Below, piece after piece: positions 6,521 to 40,443 of a stretch of 43,400 nucleotides of DNA (within the stretch, counting starts at the first letter, position 1; each line of letters opens with the position of its first letter). Source of the DNA: an uncultured Ruminococcus sp. (GTDB lineage: Bacteria > Bacillota > Clostridia > Oscillospirales > Acutalibacteraceae); NCBI GenBank assembly GCA_902779615.1, contig CACZCM010000004.1, positions 1-43,400 of the forward strand. The letters run 5' to 3'. The notes beneath the pieces were generated by a model. It was given only the letters and a program-made list of their open reading frames with translations. It was not told where the DNA came from and ran no database searches. The translations under genes were made by a program, and so were the position numbers.

Positions 6521-7993
6521 ATGGAAAATAATTTTTTGAAATTATTAAACGATATTTTAGGCGAATACAGCGATGTTAAGATCTCCGCTATAACTGGGAT
6601 CGAACGCACAAGGATAAACCGAATCAGAAACGGAAAATTTAAGATCGAGCTTCACGAATTACAAAAGATAATCTCGCTTTTCTATGTAGACTCCGCAACT
6701 GCACGGCGGCTGTACGACGCATATCTCTACGATAAGCTTGGCCCGGATAAATACAGATCACGGCAGATCGCCAAAGAATTTTTGGCGGGTCTGAGATTTG
6801 ACAATAATACTCCAAACTTTCTCAATACCGATATCAACATTAACATCAACATTAACAATGAATTCGACGAAACAAAAGAGCTGACCACGATCAACAGTCT
6901 GACCGCTGTCCGCAACGCAAAGATAATGGTACTGCTGAAAGCTCAGTCGAACGGAGAAAAGATCAGGATCATAAGCGCTCCGAATGATAATTTTCTGATA
7001 TCAGAATTATTTACAATAACATCGGCTAAACCCGAGCTTGAAATCGATCACATTTATTCATTGGCGTCTGCCGAGCAGCTGCCCTCTCCTCTTACATATT
7101 ACATCTCCGCAGCAAAGGCGACCTACCCAATTTTTATGCTGAATACCAACTACAAAGCCTACTACAACACAAGCGGATACAGCACAAATGAGCTTATGCC
7201 CTTCCACATCATTACAGGCGAATACAGTATGTCGATATCCGCCGACTCTTCGGCTGCCGTTTTGTCAAAAAACAACGACGTCGTTAAGCTTCACAGCAAG
7301 ATATTCGACGACAGAGTAAAACAATCTGCGTCATTCATAAAACATATCGAAACAACGGAAATGTATCTGCAGCATTACTGTTCGATCATCGAACGCTCCC
7401 AGCCAAAACCAATAAATTTGTTTTATTCCCTCGATTACGAACCATGTGTGCTGAGCTTTCTAACACAGAATGAATTAGAGCTTTGTATGAGATCTATGAA
7501 AGGTAATGATGAGCTTCTAGAAGTATCAAGTCAGTTTGTGAATTCATTTTTTGGATTGTTTATAGGCAATCGCCAAATATCTTTCTTTACAAAAAAGGGA
7601 CTGCGATCATTCCTTGAAACAGGCAAGATCGAGGAAGTTCCCGAAAGCATAGGACTTATCGTACCGCATGAGCGCCGCTTGGAGATCATTAAAATAGTTC
7701 TCGAAAAGATAAAAAATCCAACAGGAAAAAAGATATTCTTTATGCTTAACGAGAATGAGTTTGATCCTCCGCTGGGTCTTAGGTTTTTGGGAGGCGGCTA
7801 CAAAAGCGATCATCTTTTTGTTATTTCCAATGACAAAGACGGCAGCCGCTCAATACTCAGCCTGTCTAATCCCGAAACGGTTTCGGTAATATTTGATTTT
7901 ATGGAATCACTGCCCGAATCCAACATGGTGTACCCAAAGGAAGAAACAGCAGCTTATATTGAAAAGCTGTTGAGTGAATACAATAAATCATAA
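6521..7993 (+). CDS. XRE-type helix-turn-helix protein, unknown effector domain
   Basis: 490-residue soluble protein that I do not recognise as a named family. Residues about 10-60 look like a Cro/cI-type helix-turn-helix (VKISAITGIERTRINRIRNG), so DNA binding is likely. The remaining 430 or so residues have no TM segment and no motif I can name. A low-complexity Ile/Asn stretch (DININININN, about residues 104-115), encoded by a short direct repeat, separates the two parts. The ATG at 6521 was preferred over the in-frame start 14 codons upstream because AAAAGG lies at proper spacing. It is convergent with the membrane protein at 8034-8942, sharing a terminator. A regulator with a large ligand- or partner-sensing C-terminus is a reasonable inference, but no target is evident. 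Confidence 0.75.
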   Translation: MENNFLKLLNDILGEYSDVKISAITGIERTRINRIRNGKFKIELHELQKIISLFYVDSATARRLYDAYLYDKLGPDKYRSRQIAKEFLAGLRFDNNTPNFLNTDININININNEFDETKELTTINSLTAVRNAKIMVLLKAQSNGEKIRIISAPNDNFLISELFTITSAKPELEIDHIYSLASAEQLPSPLTYYISAAKATYPIFMLNTNYKAYYNTSGYSTNELMPFHIITGEYSMSISADSSAAVLSKNNDVVKLHSKIFDDRVKQSASFIKHIETTEMYLQHYCSIIERSQPKPINLFYSLDYEPCVLSFLTQNELELCMRSMKGNDELLEVSSQFVNSFFGLFIGNRQISFFTKKGLRSFLETGKIEEVPESIGLIVPHERRLEIIKIVLEKIKNPTGKKIFFMLNENEFDPPLGLRFLGGGYKSDHLFVISNDKDGSRSILSLSNPETVSVIFDFMESLPESNMVYPKEETAAYIEKLLSEYNKS

Positions 7994-7996
7994 TAC

Positions 7997-8025
7997 AAAA
8001 AACGGCGCTGTTTCACGCCGTTTTT
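7997..8025. terminator. Bidirectional terminator
   Basis: AAAAAACGGCG / CGCCGTTTTT hairpin with an A-tract and a T-tract on opposite sides, placed between two convergent genes and suited to both. Confidence 0.85.
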
Positions 8026-8033
8026 ATTTTTTA

Positions 8034-8942
8034 TCAGCCGAATATATCGATATCATCAAACCTTACATTTTCCGACGTATTCGCCTGTTCTGCCATATGG
8101 TGATATTTGAATGCACACAATGCTGTGATCAAGGACGCTGCGCCTCTTATGTAAGCTAAGCTCAAACTCACGGTAACGTAAGTTTTGTCAGCATTTATAC
8201 CGAATGCGATAAACGCGTCCTTATAGCAATAATAAAGAAACGTGACGACTGCCGCAAGTATTATCAGCGCGCTCGCCACAGTCATTGAAAAAACTCCGAA
8301 TGTATGAGCGCCGTTATTCTTTGCCGCGCTTGTTTTCAATGTCAAGCGTATCGACTTTATAAATTCCACCTGCGATTGAGAATACCAGACCAGCATAAAC
8401 AGCGCAGCGTCGGAAACTGCCATCACAAGCAATATAAGCCATTTTTTGGACTCTGCCTTCTGTATGCCTGCTTTTGATAATTTGAATATATCTGCAAAAA
8501 ACACAGGTCCCTTTATAAAATATGCAGCCGTAAATATCATCATTACGGAAAATACTGCTATCAAAAAAACTAATTGTATTACAGACCACTTTTGCACTAT
8601 GCTAAGGCTTTTCTGCGGTGACGACTCTTTTGACGGATCGACGCTTGATATGTATACCCCGAAGAATACAAATGCAAAAAACAGCGACAACACCAACGAA
8701 GCGGCAACCGCTGCGCCTTGTATCCTCGTGGGCGAAAAATCCGGTGAATATTTCGACGTGACCAATTTCAGCAGAGTAAGCTCCAATATCTCATTCTTTG
8801 ATACAGAGATATACCCAAGGCAGAGTATCCTCAATATCAGAATTATCGGCATGGCTAATATCAACGGACTTCTGCCAAACCGTTTTACCATTAAGAAATT
8901 TCGTTCGTAATTATCGGAAGGAATGTAATTGATCTTTTTCAT
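8034..8942 (-). CDS. Polytopic membrane protein, unknown function
   Basis: 302-residue protein with about six hydrophobic segments (for example ILAMPIILILRILCLGYI near the N-terminus, then AAVAASLVLSLFFAFVFFG, SVIQLVFLIAVFSVMMIFTA, KWLILLVMAVSDAALFMLVW, VASALIILAAVVTFLYYCY and a final one near the C-terminus). I recognise no transporter signature. The second ATG (8942) was chosen because GAAGGAGCG lies nine bases upstream of it. The first ATG, at 8948, is only three bases from that site. It shares a terminator with the convergent XRE-like gene and may be co-inherited with it. Confidence 0.72.
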   Translation of the reverse strand: MKKINYIPSDNYERNFLMVKRFGRSPLILAMPIILILRILCLGYISVSKNEILELTLLKLVTSKYSPDFSPTRIQGAAVAASLVLSLFFAFVFFGVYISSVDPSKESSPQKSLSIVQKWSVIQLVFLIAVFSVMMIFTAAYFIKGPVFFADIFKLSKAGIQKAESKKWLILLVMAVSDAALFMLVWYSQSQVEFIKSIRLTLKTSAAKNNGAHTFGVFSMTVASALIILAAVVTFLYYCYKDAFIAFGINADKTYVTVSLSLAYIRGAASLITALCAFKYHHMAEQANTSENVRFDDIDIFG

Positions 8943-9145
8943 ACGCATCGCTCCTTCACAGAAAAACAGCTATTCTGCTATAATTATTCTAATTCATTTC
9001 AGCTCTAAATACAATAGCTTTTTTTAAAATTCGTGAATCGAATTTTATTTACCGTCTCTTTAAATAACAGAACGATACATTAAATACTTATTATTCTATT
9101 ATTTAATTGTTTTTGAATAATTTATAATTAAGCAAACGTTTTTGC

Positions 9146-9185
9146 AAAGTTTTCAACATTGCATTGAATCAATGTTGAAAACTTT
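9146..9185. repeat. Perfect 16-bp-stem hairpin
   Basis: Arms 9146-9161 and 9170-9185 are exact complements (AAAGTTTTCAACATTG) around an 8-base loop. It lies in the 440-bp gap between two minus-strand genes, immediately before a second perfect hairpin. Confidence 0.75.
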
Positions 9186-9187
9186 AT

Positions 9188-9228
9188 AAAAATAGTCGTT
9201 GAAGTATTTTGCTTCAACGACTATTTTT
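9188..9228. terminator. Perfect 17-bp-stem bidirectional terminator
   Basis: AAAAATAGTCGTTGAAG (9188-9204) pairs perfectly with 9212-9228 around a 7-base loop, and has an A-tract at one end and a T-tract at the other. It would end the minus-strand DUF1846 transcript before the membrane-protein gene. Confidence 0.75.
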
Positions 9229-9259
9229 GTGGTATTAAAATTTAGTAAAAAGCTGTTTT

Positions 9260-9386
9260 AAAAGCTCTGCTTTCAACAAGCAGATACAAACCGTATGCTT
9301 ATGCGTTCAGCATGAATATGGATCCTCTACTGAATGTGAGATGGAACCCGCCGCCTTAGAAACGGCGGACACCTCCTCTGTGGTTA
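9260..9386 (+). repeat. Repeat A, full-length copy (A1)
   Basis: In order: AAAAGCTCTGCTTT palindrome; CAACAAGCAGATAC; a hairpin around CCGTATGC; TTCAG...CTGAA stem; CGCCG/CGGCG stem; and the terminal CTCTGTGGTTAT. This terminal motif includes the minus-strand stop codon of the DUF1846 gene (9384-9386), so the repeat abuts or defines the gene end. It shares its order of parts with the copies at 19050, 33783 and 38300. Confidence 0.85.
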
Positions 9387-10868
9387 TCGGTGATAAAGCT
9401 TGTCGGATTCGTACTGTGGCTCACAAGTCAGGTCTATCCCCAATCTTCGGAATATATCATTATCCTCCTGAGATAAGATCACTACCGAATGCACCTGAGT
9501 GTTTTTAAGCTTAGACACCTGTTCCAAAGCAAGCTTGGCGTTATTATCATTCTCTGCGCTTACCGCCAAAGCAACCAGAACTTCATCAACGTGCATTCTT
9601 GGATTCTGATTCTTCATCACATTTTTCTTTAAATTCTGTATTGCACGAACGACCTCCTTAGGAAGGAGCAGAACTTCATCATCAATTCCAGCAAGCACCT
9701 TTAATGCATTCAGCATCATGGAGCATACTGCGCCGAGAAGATCCGTTGTTTTGCCGGTAATTATCCTTCCATCATTAAGCTCGATCGCAGCCACGGGATC
9801 CCGGTAGTTTTCGGAAAATTTATTAGCCACGACAGCGACCTTTCGATCGTCCTTCGTGATCTCAAGGCGGTTCATCAGCATCTCGATCTTTTTTACTTCA
9901 TCGAGCGCCGTTCCGGTTACCTTATGCTTTACAAGCGCGTCGTAATATCGCCGGATTATCTCCTGCTTTGAAGCCTCACGGATAACGGCGTCATCGGTAA
10001 TTGCAAAGCCCACCATGTTTACGCCCATATCCGTAGGAGATTTGTAGGGCGATTCTCCGTAGATCTTTGTAAAGATCGCATTCAGCACCGGGAATACTTC
10101 CACATCGCGGTTATAGTTTACGGTCGTCTTCCCATATGCCTGCAAATGCCACGGGTCTATCATATTGACATCGTTAAGATCGGCAGTTGCCGCTTCATAT
10201 GCCAGATTGATCGGGTGCATAAGCTCCATGCTCCAGACAGGGAATGTTTCGTACTTTGCGTAGCCCGCCTTCACGCCCCGCTTGTTTTCATGATAAAGCT
10301 GCGACATACAAGTTGCCATCTTGCCGCTGCCCGGTCCCGGCGCAGTTACAACGACCAGCGGACGGGAGGTTACGATATAATCATTTTTTCCGAAGCCTTC
10401 CTCGCTTACGATAAACTGCGGATTTGACGGGTAGCCATCTATAATATAGTGAAGGTATACCTTCACTCCAAGGTTTTCGAGCCGAGCCTTAAACTTATCG
10501 GCCGAAGGCTCGTGATTATACTGAGTGATTACAACGCTTCCGACATATAGTCCTATTTCCTTCAGCTTATCCATAAGACGCAGAATATCCATATCATATG
10601 TAATTCCGATATCGCTTCTCATTTTATTCTGTTCAATAGCTGCGGCGTTAATTGCAAAAATTATTTCTGTTTTGTCTTTGAGCTTTAAAAGCATTCTTAC
10701 CTTGCTGTCCGGCTGAAACCCGGGCAGTACACGTGAAGCGTGATGATCGTCAAACAGCTTGCCGCCGAACTCCATATAGAGCTTGCCGCCGAAGCTGCCA
10801 ATACGTTCGAGTATTTTCTCGGACTGAAGATGAAGGTATTTATCATTATCAAAACCAATTTTATTCAT
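9384..10868 (-). CDS. DUF1846 family protein
   Basis: 494-residue soluble protein matching the DUF1846 family of Firmicutes by its whole length and by remembered sequence features such as the start MNKIGFDNDKYL and the segment FGGKLFDDHHASRVLPGF. A nucleotide-binding-like glycine loop, TAPGPGSGKMAT, places Lys183 where a P-loop lysine would be. Structures are known for the family but, to my knowledge, no established reaction. It is monocistronic on the minus strand, and repeat A supplies its 3' boundary. Three imperfect 10-bp direct repeats (11056-11083) lie about 190 bp upstream and might be an operator. Confidence 0.88.
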   Translation of the reverse strand: MNKIGFDNDKYLHLQSEKILERIGSFGGKLYMEFGGKLFDDHHASRVLPGFQPDSKVRMLLKLKDKTEIIFAINAAAIEQNKMRSDIGITYDMDILRLMDKLKEIGLYVGSVVITQYNHEPSADKFKARLENLGVKVYLHYIIDGYPSNPQFIVSEEGFGKNDYIVTSRPLVVVTAPGPGSGKMATCMSQLYHENKRGVKAGYAKYETFPVWSMELMHPINLAYEAATADLNDVNMIDPWHLQAYGKTTVNYNRDVEVFPVLNAIFTKIYGESPYKSPTDMGVNMVGFAITDDAVIREASKQEIIRRYYDALVKHKVTGTALDEVKKIEMLMNRLEITKDDRKVAVVANKFSENYRDPVAAIELNDGRIITGKTTDLLGAVCSMMLNALKVLAGIDDEVLLLPKEVVRAIQNLKKNVMKNQNPRMHVDEVLVALAVSAENDNNAKLALEQVSKLKNTQVHSVVILSQEDNDIFRRLGIDLTCEPQYESDKLYHR

Positions 10869-33570: not shown

Positions 33571-33606
33571 AAGCCTTTGAAAAGGCTTTGACGGTACGGC
33601 TTTTTT
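33571..33606 (+). terminator. Putative terminator after recF
   Basis: AAGCCTT TGAA AAGGCTT, a spacer, then TTTTTT (33601-33606). The stem resembles the module D hairpins elsewhere. About 120 bp beyond the recF stop. Confidence 0.45.
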
Positions 33607-33785
33607 ATCGTAAACGACATAAATCTTTACATAAACATTTTTTTAGTGTTGAAAGTGGAGTTTTGAATAATGCTTTTTACAGCTCGCAGTTCTAAGCAGA
33701 TTCACATTATATCAGATTTGGCGTCAATGATTTCCCTACCAAAACAAATTAACTATCAAATCTATTATTCAATGATGTTTACTAT
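33603..33785 (-). repeat. Repeat B copy 2
   Basis: Minus-strand counterpart of 11106-11290, with the shared blocks ATCATTGAATAATAG, TAATGTGAATCTGCTTAGA and TAAAGATTTATGTCGTTTACGA. On its minus-strand 5' side it is fused directly to the terminal CGGTTATA of repeat A copy A6. No ORF is supported. Confidence 0.8.
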
Positions 33786-33976
33786 AACCGCAGAGGGGAA
33801 TGTTCCCCGGGTGTCGCCTGCCGTCGGGGACGGTTCCCAACCGGCTCGGTCGGTGCTTCTGCTGTGCAGAGGTCTCCACAGGAGACCCGCACCCTCTATT
33901 AGGAGGCGGGGAACATCCCCTACTGAACGCACAAAGCCTTTGGCTTTGTCTTTGCTTGTTTAAAGCAGAGCTTTTA
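33783..33976 (-). repeat. Repeat A copy (A6) enclosing module C
   Basis: On the minus strand: AAAAGCTCTGCTTTAAACAAGC, an AAAGCC/GGCTTT hairpin, GTTCAGTAGGGG, GATGTTCCCC, then module C (33897-33842, GGTCTCC/GGAGACC and CTGC...GCAG hairpins plus ACCGACCGAG), then GGGGAACATTCCCC and the terminal CTCTGCGGTTATA. Module C takes the place of the CGCCG stem seen in copy A1. With repeat B it fills much of the 795-bp recF-remB gap. Confidence 0.82.
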
Positions 33977-33991
33977 ATGAGTTGAGAATTT

Positions 33992-34040
33992 ATTAACATA
34001 AAGTTTTCGCCAAGCCTTTTGAAAAGACTTGAGCGAAAAT
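33992..34040. repeat. Module D hairpin
   Basis: ATTAACATAAAGTTTTCGCC then AAGCCTTTTGAAAAGACTT, closed by GCGAAAA, giving a long imperfect stem 34004-34037. Similar to 38203-38250 and, inverted, 225-262. Confidence 0.65.
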
Positions 34041-34245
34041 TTTTACTGTATACCAATATATAAAAATTAAACATTTAATCATACAATTAAAATAGTGATA
34101 AAATATTTTATAAATTGCTTCATAAAATCACAAATTTTTTAAATTTTTTTTGAAAAAACGCCCACAAAATCATTTTTTTATGATATAATTATAATGTGTA
34201 TAAATAATAGGATAAGTGCCGATATTTACGGCAATGGAGGGCGCA

Positions 34246-34518
34246 GTGTATCTACATTTAGGCTCTGATGTGGTGGTCTTAAAATCGTCTGTTATCGGAA
34301 TATTCGATCTGGATACGTCAACCGTTTCCAAGATCACCAGAAATTATCTCGCTGCCGCCGAAAAAGAAGGGCGTGTTGTGACGGTGTCTTACGATCTTCC
34401 GAGGTCGTTTATTGCTGCTGTTGATGACGGAAGAATTACGGTCTACATCAGCCAGCTTTCCTCCCAGACTCTTCTAAAACGCTATTACGGTCATGTCCAA
34501 CAAGATATGTCAACATAA
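34246..34518 (+). CDS. remB: Extracellular matrix regulator RemB (DUF370)
   Basis: 90-residue protein of the RemA/RemB (DUF370, YaaB) family, a small DNA-binding regulator that in Bacillus activates biofilm-matrix genes. The family start is YLHLGSDVVVLKSSVIGIFDLD. The GTG at 34246 is chosen because the encoded MYLHLG matches the family N-terminus and GGAGG lies five bases upstream. An upstream in-frame GTG (34216) lacks a ribosome site. TATAAT boxes lie at 34184 and 34190. Between recF and gyrB, as in most Firmicutes. Its stop codon lies at the edge of a repeat A copy. Confidence 0.9.
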   Translation: MYLHLGSDVVVLKSSVIGIFDLDTSTVSKITRNYLAAAEKEGRVVTVSYDLPRSFIAAVDDGRITVYISQLSSQTLLKRYYGHVQQDMST

Positions 34519-34566
34519 CGCGCAAGCCTATGGCTTGTGTCTGCTTGTCGAATGCAGAGCATTTAA
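34515..34566 (-). repeat. Repeat A, truncated copy (A7)
   Basis: Minus strand: AAATGCTCTGCATTCGACAAGCAGACACAAGCC and AGGCTTGCGCGTTATG, the 5' half of repeat A. It overlaps the TAA stop of remB (34516-34518) and ends 41 bp before the next start codon. Confidence 0.8.
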
Positions 34567-34607: not shown

Positions 34608-37600
34608 ATGAGCAAGAATATCAGAAAATGCCCGTACTGCGGGAAAAAGGTTTCGTATATTCAGGCTTTGTCGGAAGTCAACAGCGGTGAGCATACGTGC
34701 AGTTACTGTAATAATAATTCAAATATATCGTTCAACAAGAAAATATACATACCTGCGGGCGTATTTCTCGCAGCTGCTGCCATAATTCTTGCAGTGCTGT
34801 TTAGATTGGATCTGGATCAGAATCTGCTGATCGCAGCCGGGGTCGTAATAGTCCTGTTCGGAGTGTTTTATTTTTTGACTCCTCTGTTTTACATGCTTGA
34901 GGCGATCAACGGCATTCAGGCAAGAATTCCTGTAGAACGAAAACGTAAGCGCAGCGATCCGACTGCGAATGCTGTGAAAAGCAGCGCTAAGGCAGCGTCC
35001 GCAGCTGCCGCAAGGGAGAGTAAAGAAATGGGCAAGAAAAACAGCTCCTTCAAGGAGAAACTTAACAAGTTCATAAAAACATATGTTGTTGTTGATGATG
35101 ACGAGGACGCAGAGTCAAATAAACCGTCAGACGTCAATGAGCCGTTTTACGATGAGTTTGTTGACGAAGAAAGCGTATATTCAAATGACGATACATCATG
35201 GAATGTTATCAGCGATTTCAGCAATGATGATGCTAAAAATTATTCGGGCGCTCAGTCTGACGATGAGTTCACCGAGATATCCTCCGATTCATCAGACAGC
35301 GAAAACGAGTCGAATTGGATCGCTGTTCCGCCAACCGAAGATGAATCCGATATCTACAGCGGCAGTACACATATAGAAGAGATCGTTGAAAATAAGACTA
35401 TCGAGGATCAAAAGGCAGTTATTTCCGAAAATATCGGCCCTGCCCCAAATATTGCTGCAAAAGAGGAGCCTGCTTATCAGCCTCGTTACCATAAACTTAC
35501 AAAAACAACAGAGGTCGATAATATTTATGTGCCTGATAAATTGCCCGAAGTACATATAGATATTTTTGAAGAAGAGAAGCAGGAAGATGCCGAAGCTGTT
35601 ATTGAGAAAGCAGACAGCGTTTTGTCGCAGGACGAGCAGGAAGAAGAAGAGATAATGATGTTCTTCGACTCCGCTCCAAGCGAGGACGATGAGCGGGAAT
35701 TCAGCGAAGATGAAGATAACGCAGCTGCGGAAGATGATGAGTCCGAAGCTATGCAGTTAGCGGAAGCTGGCGATCTCGATGAAGCTGATAGCGGCTTGAA
35801 CAGCGAAGAAAATGAGACCGAGGAACGCAGCGAAAATTATCGTGATGAGCTTTTTGAGTATTTGCCCGATGTCGATATAATACAACTGAGATGGAGTGAC
35901 GATACTAAAACACAAAGCGAAGACGAGGATCTAATCGAAAGCGATACGAATGGATCGGACGATATTGCTCCGAATGTGGAGCAGATAGATGACGAATTGG
36001 GTTCGGCTGAAAGCGAACAAAGCTATGAAACAAATAAAGCCGCGGGAGAAGAGTATTCCGAAAACGAATTGACTTTGGATGAAAATAATTTATTCGAGGA
36101 TAATTCGGCGCCTATTTCGTTGGGAGACGAATCTGCTGATATAGAAGACGTGCTTTCAGTGTCCGAAAACGATGAGGATCAAAAAAGCGATGACAACGGT
36201 GAAAATGATTTCATGAATGAGCTTATCCTCGCCGAAGAGAGGATCGCAAGAGATCTTGACGAAATGATGAATTTTGTCAGCGAGGATAGATCGTCGATGA
36301 CGTTGACAGATGATGATCCGGATGATGAATGGGTCAGCGATGATTCGGATATCGAGTTTGAATCCAAAGACGAGATCGACGATCAGCCTGAGGAAGAGCC
36401 CGAAGACGAGATCGAGGATCAGTTTGAGGAAGAGCCCGAAGACGAGATCGAGGATCAGTTTGAGGAAGAGCCCGAAGACGAGATCGAGGATCAGTTTGAG
36501 AAAGAGCCCGAAGACGAGATCGACGATCAGCCTGAGGAAGAACCCGAAGACGAGATCGAGGATCAGCCTGAGGAAGAACCCGAGGACGAGATCGAGGATC
36601 AGCCCGAGGAAGAGCCCGAAGACGAGATCGAGGATCAGCCTGAGGAAGAACCCGAGGACGAGATCGAGGATCAGCCCGAGGAAGAGCCAGAAGACGAGAT
36701 CGACGAACAGCCCGAGGAAGAACCCGAGGACGAGATCGACGAACAGCCCGAGGAAGAACCCAAGGATGATGACGATAGTTTTGTAATAGATTATTCTCAG
36801 GGAGAGGAAAAAACATTACAGGAAGAAATAGATCTTTCGGAGTACCGCACATCAAACTATACAGAGGAAGAGCCGCAAAGCGATGATTCTGAGATAGAGG
36901 AAAAAGAGCCGGAAAAGCCGAAGGTGTCGCGTTACGAGAAAAAGTTCCCCAACGCTGTGAAGGCTGCTGCGGAGGAGGCTGTCGAGAATGAGCGCCGCCG
37001 AAAAGCAGAGGAGGAACGCAGAAAGCGAGATCAGCTTCAGCAGAAAAGCGAACAGCCCCAAAAGACCGAGAACGAAAAGAGCGGGAAGGGATTTTTCGCA
37101 AGACTGAAAGAACGCATTATCGAAGCGACAGAGGAGGAACGCCAAGAGGCTTTTGAGCAGGAAGAACGTGAGCGTAAAAGAGCAGAGAAAGAAGCTCGCA
37201 GAAAGGCGCGCGAAAAGGAAAAAGCAGCATCTCAGAATACGCGGGAGAGCGCCCGATCGAGGTCGAACGGCGAAAAGCTGTATATGAGTGAGGAGGAAAT
37301 GTTCCGAAAGGCTCAGCAGGAGATAGACCGGGAGCCTCGCAGGAAAATGACTCAGGAGGAAAAAGCAAAAATAATTGCCGAGAGAGCGCGCAGAGAGAAG
37401 CAGCAAAGCTCGCAGAACAAGCGAGAGCGAGATGAGCAGGGACGTCGTGAAGAGCAGAGCCAAGCGGCGGAGGAGCGCAGGCGCAGACGCAGCGAGTCAG
37501 ATGAAAATGCAGATCGGATACGTCAAAAGCAGATCGACAAAGCAAAAAACAGCCAGCGCAAGATGAACTCTGAAAACACGGTTCGCAGCAGTAACGCACG

Positions 37601-37673
37601 CAGCCTCAAAGACACCAACAGTGTCAGGTCAAGCGTATCGCAAAATCAGAAGAAGCGAGAGCAGGACGTTTAA
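34608..37673 (+). CDS. Zinc-ribbon, two-TM protein with acidic repeats and basic tail
   Basis: 1021 residues, no family I recognise. Residues 8-34 form a zinc ribbon (C8-P-Y-C11 and C31-S-Y-C34). Two TM helices follow at about 46-65 and 73-95. Residues about 175-765 are extremely acidic and probably disordered, and include eleven 12-residue tandem repeats of the type EDEIEDQPEEEP (587-718). Residues about 768-1021 switch to a basic, Arg/Lys/Glu/Gln-rich probable long helix or coiled coil. AAGAGGA precedes the ATG at 34608; an upstream in-frame start at 34530 has no ribosome site and lies in a repeat. The next gene encodes the same zinc-ribbon/two-TM head alone. A membrane-anchored scaffold is an inference; no enzymatic motif is visible. 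Confidence 0.8.
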   Translation: MSKNIRKCPYCGKKVSYIQALSEVNSGEHTCSYCNNNSNISFNKKIYIPAGVFLAAAAIILAVLFRLDLDQNLLIAAGVVIVLFGVFYFLTPLFYMLEAINGIQARIPVERKRKRSDPTANAVKSSAKAASAAAARESKEMGKKNSSFKEKLNKFIKTYVVVDDDEDAESNKPSDVNEPFYDEFVDEESVYSNDDTSWNVISDFSNDDAKNYSGAQSDDEFTEISSDSSDSENESNWIAVPPTEDESDIYSGSTHIEEIVENKTIEDQKAVISENIGPAPNIAAKEEPAYQPRYHKLTKTTEVDNIYVPDKLPEVHIDIFEEEKQEDAEAVIEKADSVLSQDEQEEEEIMMFFDSAPSEDDEREFSEDEDNAAAEDDESEAMQLAEAGDLDEADSGLNSEENETEERSENYRDELFEYLPDVDIIQLRWSDDTKTQSEDEDLIESDTNGSDDIAPNVEQIDDELGSAESEQSYETNKAAGEEYSENELTLDENNLFEDNSAPISLGDESADIEDVLSVSENDEDQKSDDNGENDFMNELILAEERIARDLDEMMNFVSEDRSSMTLTDDDPDDEWVSDDSDIEFESKDEIDDQPEEEPEDEIEDQFEEEPEDEIEDQFEEEPEDEIEDQFEKEPEDEIDDQPEEEPEDEIEDQPEEEPEDEIEDQPEEEPEDEIEDQPEEEPEDEIEDQPEEEPEDEIDEQPEEEPEDEIDEQPEEEPKDDDDSFVIDYSQGEEKTLQEEIDLSEYRTSNYTEEEPQSDDSEIEEKEPEKPKVSRYEKKFPNAVKAAAEEAVENERRRKAEEERRKRDQLQQKSEQPQKTENEKSGKGFFARLKERIIEATEEERQEAFEQEERERKRAEKEARRKAREKEKAASQNTRESARSRSNGEKLYMSEEEMFRKAQQEIDREPRRKMTQEEKAKIIAERARREKQQSSQNKRERDEQGRREEQSQAAEERRRRRSESDENADRIRQKQIDKAKNSQRKMNSENTVRSSNARSLKDTNSVRSSVSQNQKKREQDV
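36366..36761 (+). repeat. 36-bp tandem repeat, 11 in-frame units
   Basis: Eleven head-to-tail 36-bp units with no gaps, each coding 12 residues. Early units carry Phe at position 8 and later ones Pro. Unit ends vary at I-E-D, I-D-D or I-D-E. Near identity at the DNA level, including many synonymous positions, points to recent expansion by slippage or recombination. Confidence 0.96.
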
Positions 37674-37703
37674 CAACGGTATGATTTGTATTGGGGGAAT
37701 TGA

Positions 37704-38075
37704 ATGTTTAAGTCAGGTGTATGCCCATACTGTGGCAGTACGATCGAATACAAAAAAAGATCGTCTGCCATCAGAGAGAACAGTCACGTTTGCAGAAAAT
37801 GTATGAAAAGATCAACGGTTCGCTTCAAGCAGTCGGGTGTAATGCTTGGCATAATATTTGCAGTTGTACTTATTGCGCTGAATGTTCTGATGTTTGCTAA
37901 AGGGCACAACAAAACCGTGATACCTAATTTTGTGATCACGATAGGCGCAATAATACTATATTTATCACTGCTTCCGCTGACGACGGAATTTATCAGGATC
38001 GAAAGCGAAGATCCTCCCCGAAAGCTAAAGAAAAACCGCCGCAGGCATATCAGAGATAAACGCAAGGGCAGTTAA
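37704..38075 (+). CDS. Small zinc-ribbon, two-TM protein
   Basis: 123 residues, unknown function. C7-P-Y-C10 and C30-R-K-C33 form a zinc ribbon with exactly the same spacing as in the preceding gene (C8/C11/C31/C34). TM helices at about 45-65 and 73-93 also coincide. A Lys/Arg-rich C-terminal tail ends the protein. It is therefore a paralogue of the N-terminal head of the 1021-residue protein, 30 bp downstream of it. GGGGGAA precedes the ATG. The two form an accessory pair between remB and gyrB. Confidence 0.82.
   Translation: MFKSGVCPYCGSTIEYKKRSSAIRENSHVCRKCMKRSTVRFKQSGVMLGIIFAVVLIALNVLMFAKGHNKTVIPNFVITIGAIILYLSLLPLTTEFIRIESEDPPRKLKKNRRRHIRDKRKGS

Positions 38076-38299: not shown

Positions 38300-40443
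<2,144 letters not shown>

Follow-up and report, generated by a model that had tools for sequence, protein, structure and literature searches.

We have analysed a stretch of 43,400 nucleotides from an uncultured Ruminococcus sp. (contig CACZCM010000004.1, assembly GCA_902779615.1; hereafter the window, which makes up a complete contig in a 2.8-Mb draft genome), in which two adjacent genes, here called LONG and SHORT, lie between remB and gyrB. Their products share a zinc ribbon pattern and two transmembrane (TM) stretches, and LONG carries in addition a giant charged tail. We propose, with a rough probability of 0.45, that LONG and SHORT are an ancient membrane pair in which the LONG tail acts as a membrane-anchored, multivalent docking scaffold. 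The novelty lies in a giant scaffold-like tail on a head resembling the named family TIGR04104, together with a run of ten adenines (A10) in one subclade, and not in a new class of protein. The locus is made up as follows.

34216..34518, forward strand: remB, 100 residues, the upstream boundary of the slot; matches NF046065 with 60.7 bits (E 1.2e-16, cut-off 40)
34608..37673, forward strand: LONG, 1021 residues, zinc ribbon, two TM stretches and giant tail; an open reading frame (ORF) kept between remB and gyrB in the genus
34608..34919, forward strand: LONG head, residues 1-104, with C8 P9 Y10 C11, C31, C34 and a TM hairpin at 44-66 / 69-94, from the AlphaFold model and conserved columns
37704..38075, forward strand: SHORT, 123 residues, tandem paralogue with zinc ribbon, two TM stretches and short basic tail; an ORF conserved in the genus
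38500..40443, forward strand: gyrB, the downstream boundary of the slot, from ORF and conservation

The only cysteines of LONG are residues 8, 11, 31 and 34, and those of SHORT are residues 7, 10, 30 and 33. The offset is thus exactly one residue, in line with the original prediction from this DNA that the positions agree to within one residue, and both proteins read CxxC-x19-CxxC followed by two hydrophobic stretches. With 19-residue windows, hydropathy exceeds 1.6 for start positions 44-53 and 67-82 of LONG and 39-51 and 71-79 of SHORT, which agrees with the two TM stretches that had been placed in each. An AlphaFold model of LONG residues 1-106, made from 45 homologues, reached a mean predicted local distance difference test (pLDDT) of 82.5 and a predicted template modelling score (pTM) of 0.66, with helices at 44-66 and 69-94 and the ribbon adjoining the hairpin. 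It bears out the proposed architecture of ribbon, membrane hairpin and giant charged tail in its head portion. Columns C8, P9, Y10, C11, Y17, E28, C31, C34, S38 and P92 are invariant over 45 LONG rows, and the four ribbon cysteines are likewise invariant over 53 SHORT rows.

Against TIGR04104 (cxxc_20_cxxc), LONG scores 37.4 bits over its first 124 residues (E 2.4e-9) and 31.9 bits as a whole protein, and SHORT scores 31.7 bits (E 1.5e-7). The trimmed window heads score 38.1 (LONG) and 32.4 bits (SHORT), with alignments that span profile positions 2-90 of 93 in both. Since these scores lie under the curated cut-off of 45, we call the window heads divergent relatives and do not file them as members; by sequence, then, the heads of LONG and SHORT are divergent relatives of a named family without a function. 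Scanned singly, all 45 LONG heads and 51 of the 53 SHORT heads have a match with E <= 0.01, a count by E value for which bit scores against the cut-off are at hand for the window heads only. Across the order the model matched in 13 of 197 genomes, in one of them above the cut-off, and in none of 14 control genomes. Among solved structures there were weak zinc-finger matches confined to the ribbon (best E 0.0039 with the SHORT profile and 0.064 with the LONG profile). Literature searches found no paper mentioning TIGR04104 and none with three of remB, yaaB, gyrB and recF, and a search on zinc-ribbon terms gave nothing related, as judged from its listing of results. The statement that no described system has this form must be qualified, since the heads are divergent relatives of this named family.

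In a tree of 60 heads, LONG (32 rows) and SHORT (28 rows) separate at 100/100, over only 105 columns and with an arbitrary root. Because they form separate clades at that support, LONG and SHORT are, by this tree, true tandem paralogues, as had been claimed, and their duplication appears to be old. Two loci, L199 (7567-8234) and L208 (7536-8223), have two SHORT genes in tandem after LONG, so duplication has gone on. The window SHORT (38020-38075) does not have the C-terminal FDENPLKGTSFD-like peptide that is found past the basic stretch in many congeners.

Searches of related genomes, a check that the original prediction had suggested, found the pair kept at the locus across the genus and beyond. 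LONG is present in 17 of the 21 other genomes of the genus (E 2.3e-31 or better) and SHORT in 15 (E 1e-25 or better). In G004, G006, G008, G009, G010, G013 and G018 there is a single one of the genes, or the two are on separate contigs, with the matches near contig ends. The prediction had regarded the pair as accessory. That view does not stand: a single old gain fits the distribution, 19 of the 21 congeners keep LONG, SHORT or both, and the other two (G012 and G020) have neither gene and no orthologous gyrB, their best GyrB relative being only 34% identical. The locus seems to be missing from these two drafts, in which remB was not searched, and we reject them as counter-examples to conservation.

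Outside the genus, remB (NF046065) is found in 55 of 60 family genomes, the window's own included, and the slot was surveyed in 52 of the 54 other remB genomes (G063 and G103 were left out) plus G026. Profiles found LONG and/or SHORT homologues in 14 of the 48 other genera in which the surveyed piece has both remB and gyrB; two of these, L134 and L141, rest on weak matches of 33-38 bits. The remaining 34 slots have no such homologue, with gaps of at most 162 bp in 32 of them, which supports the earlier statement that remB and gyrB are usually adjacent. At any genome position, the head profile matched in 68 of 200 family genomes (49 of 135 genera); across the order 26 of 295 genomes matched, and the seven outside the family are all weak (E 3e-7 to 5e-4). 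A similarity scan of named genomes, which is not a census, took the best 80 of 88 confirmed stretches and with the window gave 81 loci, among them Ruminococcus bromii YE282, Ruminococcus sp. FMBCY1 and Ruminococcus sp. zg-924. The order remB-LONG-(SHORT)-gyrB is complete in 74 of the 81, and the other seven are pieces cut by contig ends. As the pair recurs at the same place across a large clade, the arrangement is beyond chance.

In a GyrB tree of 64 rows, a single branch (94/74, 91% of bootstrap trees) has all 33 pair-less genomes to one side of it; nested among the pair-bearing rows, the window's genus (16 rows) is a clade at 100/100. Every row of this genus carries the label 'giant' in the tree, though G006, G008 and G009 have only part of LONG on their contigs, and L163 was labelled by hand. 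Most simply, the trees suggest an old duplication that entered the remB-gyrB slot once, in the ancestor of a large Ruminococcus-like clade, followed by a later, single origin of the giant tail. A recent mobile insertion was considered and rejected, because 14 of 48 other genera have the slot occupied and the tree is consistent with one gain.

The two proteins differ as had been described, LONG having 1021 residues and SHORT 123, and the ORFs, residue counts and repeat finder agree on an acidic, repeat-bearing and then basic extension. LONG residues 161-760 hold 247 D/E against 26 K/R, and the last 261 (761-1021) hold 59 D/E against 74 K/R. The acidic repeats keep a register of ten starts, spaced by 12, over residues 599-707. 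The tail features are as follows.

35049..35105, forward strand: tail island FKEKLNKFIKTYVVVDDDE, mean identity 0.64 to seven congeners
35478..35525, forward strand: tail island QPRYHKLTKTTEVDNI, mean identity 0.65
35640..35687, forward strand: tail island EEEEIMMFFDSAPSED, mean identity 0.62
36367..36761, forward strand: 12-residue acidic repeats, 36 bp x 11.0 copies, from Tandem Repeats Finder
36921..36989, forward strand: tail island KVSRYEKKFPNAVKAAAEEAVEN, mean identity 0.70
37095..37220, forward strand: tail island FARLKERIIEATEEERQEAFEQEERERKRAEKEARRKAREKE, mean identity 0.66; the A10 subclade changes frame shortly past the equivalent island
37281..37673, forward strand: C-terminal charged module of about 130 residues, in frame in the window, with a counterpart in the -1 frame in the A10 subclade

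Between the window LONG and seven congeners mean identity is 0.63 in the islands and 0.21 in the remaining tail, in an alignment of eight of the 12 congeneric LONG proteins with both ends, two of them frame-0 products of the A10 subclade. In the closest LONG pair the proportions of synonymous (pS) and nonsynonymous (pN) differences are 0.62 and 0.16 in the tail and 0.37 and 0.075 in the head; the other six pairs are at or near synonymous saturation, and their tail pN is at most about twice head pN. By these comparisons the tail is constrained coding sequence that evolves fast under purifying selection, its loose acidic matrix being interspersed with short conserved stretches.

Among the genomes examined, the giant tail is restricted to the window's genus, where congeneric LONG proteins with both gene ends measure 855-1313 residues (frame-0 products) and the tail itself roughly 750-1200. 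At the 67 loci outside the genus LONG, trimmed to the head start, has 161-284 residues, with one of 437 (L184), and a few distant LONG proteins of 100 and 121 residues hardly exceed a head. In the short LONG tails of L186, L190, L199, L208 and L244 there are peptides of the types G[TSK]T[RK][IV][IM] and YTR[MI]IP[KR], which we take to recall FHA-binding phospho-threonine motifs. The widest FHA-type pattern, chosen post hoc, has 11 matches in 10 of 26 representative tails from outside the genus, against 0.36 expected from shuffles, and none in the window LONG; a fourth pattern, TT[VI][FILM], had no matches in the tails tested. A shared phospho-threonine tail motif is kept as a lead only. At L177 (G007) LONG, at 7001-9685, has a frame break inside the acidic repeats and the remaining tail lies in another frame, while its relative L174 (G002) has LONG in one frame; the break may reflect an assembly error, strain decay or phase variation.

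The LONG of the window is a single open frame. In one subclade of the genus the frame changes at an A10 run, found at these positions.

L173:8159: A10 site of G015
L176:9547: A10 site of G021
L076:7264, reverse strand: A10 site of G011
L073:728: A10 site of G009

In G015, G011 and G021, LONG stops soon past the island FFSxxKEKIVEATEEER, at CAAAAAAAAAATCGAAAARGTAA: frame 0 ends three codons after the A10 run, and the -1 frame runs for 153 codons, ending just before SHORT. In G009, their sister on the GyrB tree, the A10 site sits in different surrounding DNA, with one sense codon and a stop after the ten A and a -1 frame that is open for 147 codons. In all four species the third frame meets a stop within 3-7 codons. 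The -1-frame protein matches the C-terminal module that other congeners have in frame; as a query it finds matches in 15 of the 22 genus genomes, its own included, and the G015 version matches window 37281-37676 weakly (E 9.1e-5, 29% identity). Over the 153 codons of G011, G015 and G021, synonymous divergence (dS) is 0.96-2.25 and nonsynonymous divergence (dN) 0.12-0.24, for a dN/dS of about 0.11-0.15 in these three species. Outside the subclade, nine LONG genes in one frame, the window's included, were compared: four have nine A in frame, which in G001, G014 and G017 follow the same island or stand at its end and in G016 lie at another place, and the other five have no run of nine. In the window LONG and SHORT the longest A run is at most seven.

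From this geometry the A10 site is likely a dnaX-type slippage or frameshifting site that would give two LONG isoforms in this subclade. For dnaX, PMC3711429 describes nine genes with ten A among 17 in a cluster, and frameshifting that rose with run length in three test cassettes. Nine A is, according to PMC1088944, a common length at which selection against runs shows in a large proportion of genomes. That the break in this subclade is instead an assembly error or a decaying gene strikes us as unlikely, though the four A10 genomes are drafts in many contigs, G007 is a fifth congener with a lone break, and in G021 the -1 frame has a GTG at its codon 6 from which translation of a separate protein could begin. 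Against this stand exactly ten A at the same place in four of the four subclade species whose contigs reach it, despite the dS values given above for three of them over the next 153 codons, and a continuation of identical length in these three and of 147 codons in the fourth, constrained in the three compared. Moreover, the first ATG, GTG or TTG of the continuation comes only at codon 82 in G011 and G015 and at codon 29 in G009.

Three known systems help to place LONG. The pair resembles TIGR04104 in its CxxC-x19-CxxC pattern followed by a hydrophobic stretch, and LONG differs from that profile, which has only 93 positions and no giant tail. The likeness to poly-A transcriptional realignment in dnaX lies in the A10 run, two overlapping frames and a prompt stop in one of them. 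In the A10 subclade, however, it is the longer LONG product that would need the slip, the protein is a membrane-anchored tail and slippage is a prediction; the window's own LONG has no such site. The C-terminal half of RNase E is the scaffold of the degradosome, a disordered tail held at the membrane in which short conserved islands alternate with variable linkers. By analogy only, LONG also would be membrane-held with conserved islands between variable linkers, but its anchor is a zinc-ribbon TM hairpin, and Pfam and NCBIfam scans of LONG gave no match to a ribonuclease domain.

In the scaffold reading, each head would be a membrane hairpin bearing a zinc ribbon, its two ends facing the cytoplasm, zinc binding being predicted from the cysteine pattern and the model, and the cytoplasmic topology from the basic residues that follow TM2. 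The LONG head, perhaps together with SHORT where present, would hold the scaffold at the membrane, the tail islands would bind cytosolic partners, and the acidic linker would keep these partners apart and flexible. In other genera LONG has a modest tail or hardly any; in the window's genus the tail has grown, and it ends in a charged module. In the A10 subclade a fraction of the product would probably carry this C-terminal module (147-153 residues) and the rest would not; the joint reading, a docking scaffold whose module is dosed by slippage of RNA polymerase or of the ribosome at A10, is in our estimate about as likely as not. The scaffold role given in the original prediction stays plausible because conserved islands sit in a variable acidic matrix, and beyond that it is inferred.

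Several observations weigh against the scaffold pair. LONG falls below the cut-off of every Pfam and NCBIfam model (and SHORT below that of every Pfam model). The helical moments of three of the five island stretches are no higher than those of shuffles, which leaves amphipathic membrane helices unsupported for these three, and those of the other two are modestly higher (fractions 0.03 and 0.02, uncorrected). SHORT is missing from five of the 14 filled slots in other genera (L112, L114, L122, L125 and L160), and in seven of the 81 loci LONG lies directly 5' of gyrB without it, so an obligate complex of the two proteins is unlikely. The support of the single-gain branch, 94/74, is not strong.

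The pair could also be a zinc- or redox-responsive membrane sensor whose tail transmits a signal or titrates a regulator such as RemB. The four invariant cysteines with no others in either window protein, the ribbon beside the hairpin in the model, and the constant neighbourhood of remB, labelled a matrix regulator by NF046065, are in keeping with this. Yet remB and gyrB occur without the pair in 34 of 48 other genera, and a sensor has no need of a tail of hundreds of residues, so that we hold it to be unlikely. Somewhat less probable still is a largely neutral tail, a runaway acidic extension grown by repeat expansion, in which only the small heads matter. Such a tail would fit the spread of LONG lengths among congeners, the low linker identity and 36-bp repeats of a kind able to expand by replication slippage. 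It fits poorly with a tail pN far below pS, strongly conserved islands and a -1-frame C-terminal module that is constrained in the three species tested.

We give the least weight, and consider improbable, an acidic nucleic-acid mimic or a gyrase or nucleoid tether, in which the tail would bind DNA-binding proteins near oriC. The place of the pair among dnaA, dnaN, recF, gyrB and gyrA and the 247 acidic residues of LONG 161-760 invite this idea, but homologues in other genera hold the same place with short tails, and no DNA- or gyrase-binding family is above its cut-off in LONG. A link to gyrase, DnaA or ParB is suggested by position alone.

The gene order in the window is presumably dnaA, dnaN, an S4-type gene, recF, remB, LONG, SHORT, gyrB and gyrA, where dnaA, dnaN, the S4-type gene, recF and gyrA are names that we assume from the translations. 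LONG starts at the ATG at 34608 and its stop ends at 37673, whereas the mechanical ORF opens earlier, at 34530; Shine-Dalgarno-like sequences were seen by eye upstream of 34608 and 37704. An Rfam scan of the window gave nothing at the gathering threshold. Promoter-like sites in the window number seven against 7.3 in shuffles, which is no excess, and terminator-like sites number 14 against 4.9, many of them inside genes. The gap between recF and remB (33600-34160) contains pieces of a high-copy interspersed repeat resembling a miniature inverted-repeat transposable element (MITE). This repeat has 55 matching pieces in its own genome at E <= 0.001, the query included (40 of 303 candidates scored), and a 26-base part of it occurs in four copies in the window with at most two mismatches.

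A zinc-ribbon membrane family without a function is thus a long-standing neighbour of gyrase across a gut and rumen clade that includes Ruminococcus bromii YE282, and in one genus a small-headed membrane protein has become scaffold-like, at about a thousand residues. The function can be tested through the short-tailed forms that named strains carry. If the A10 site is real, a membrane scaffold would join the genes that possibly use slippage to make two products, and gyrase would have as its neighbour the gene of a membrane scaffold under a dnaX-like decoding switch.

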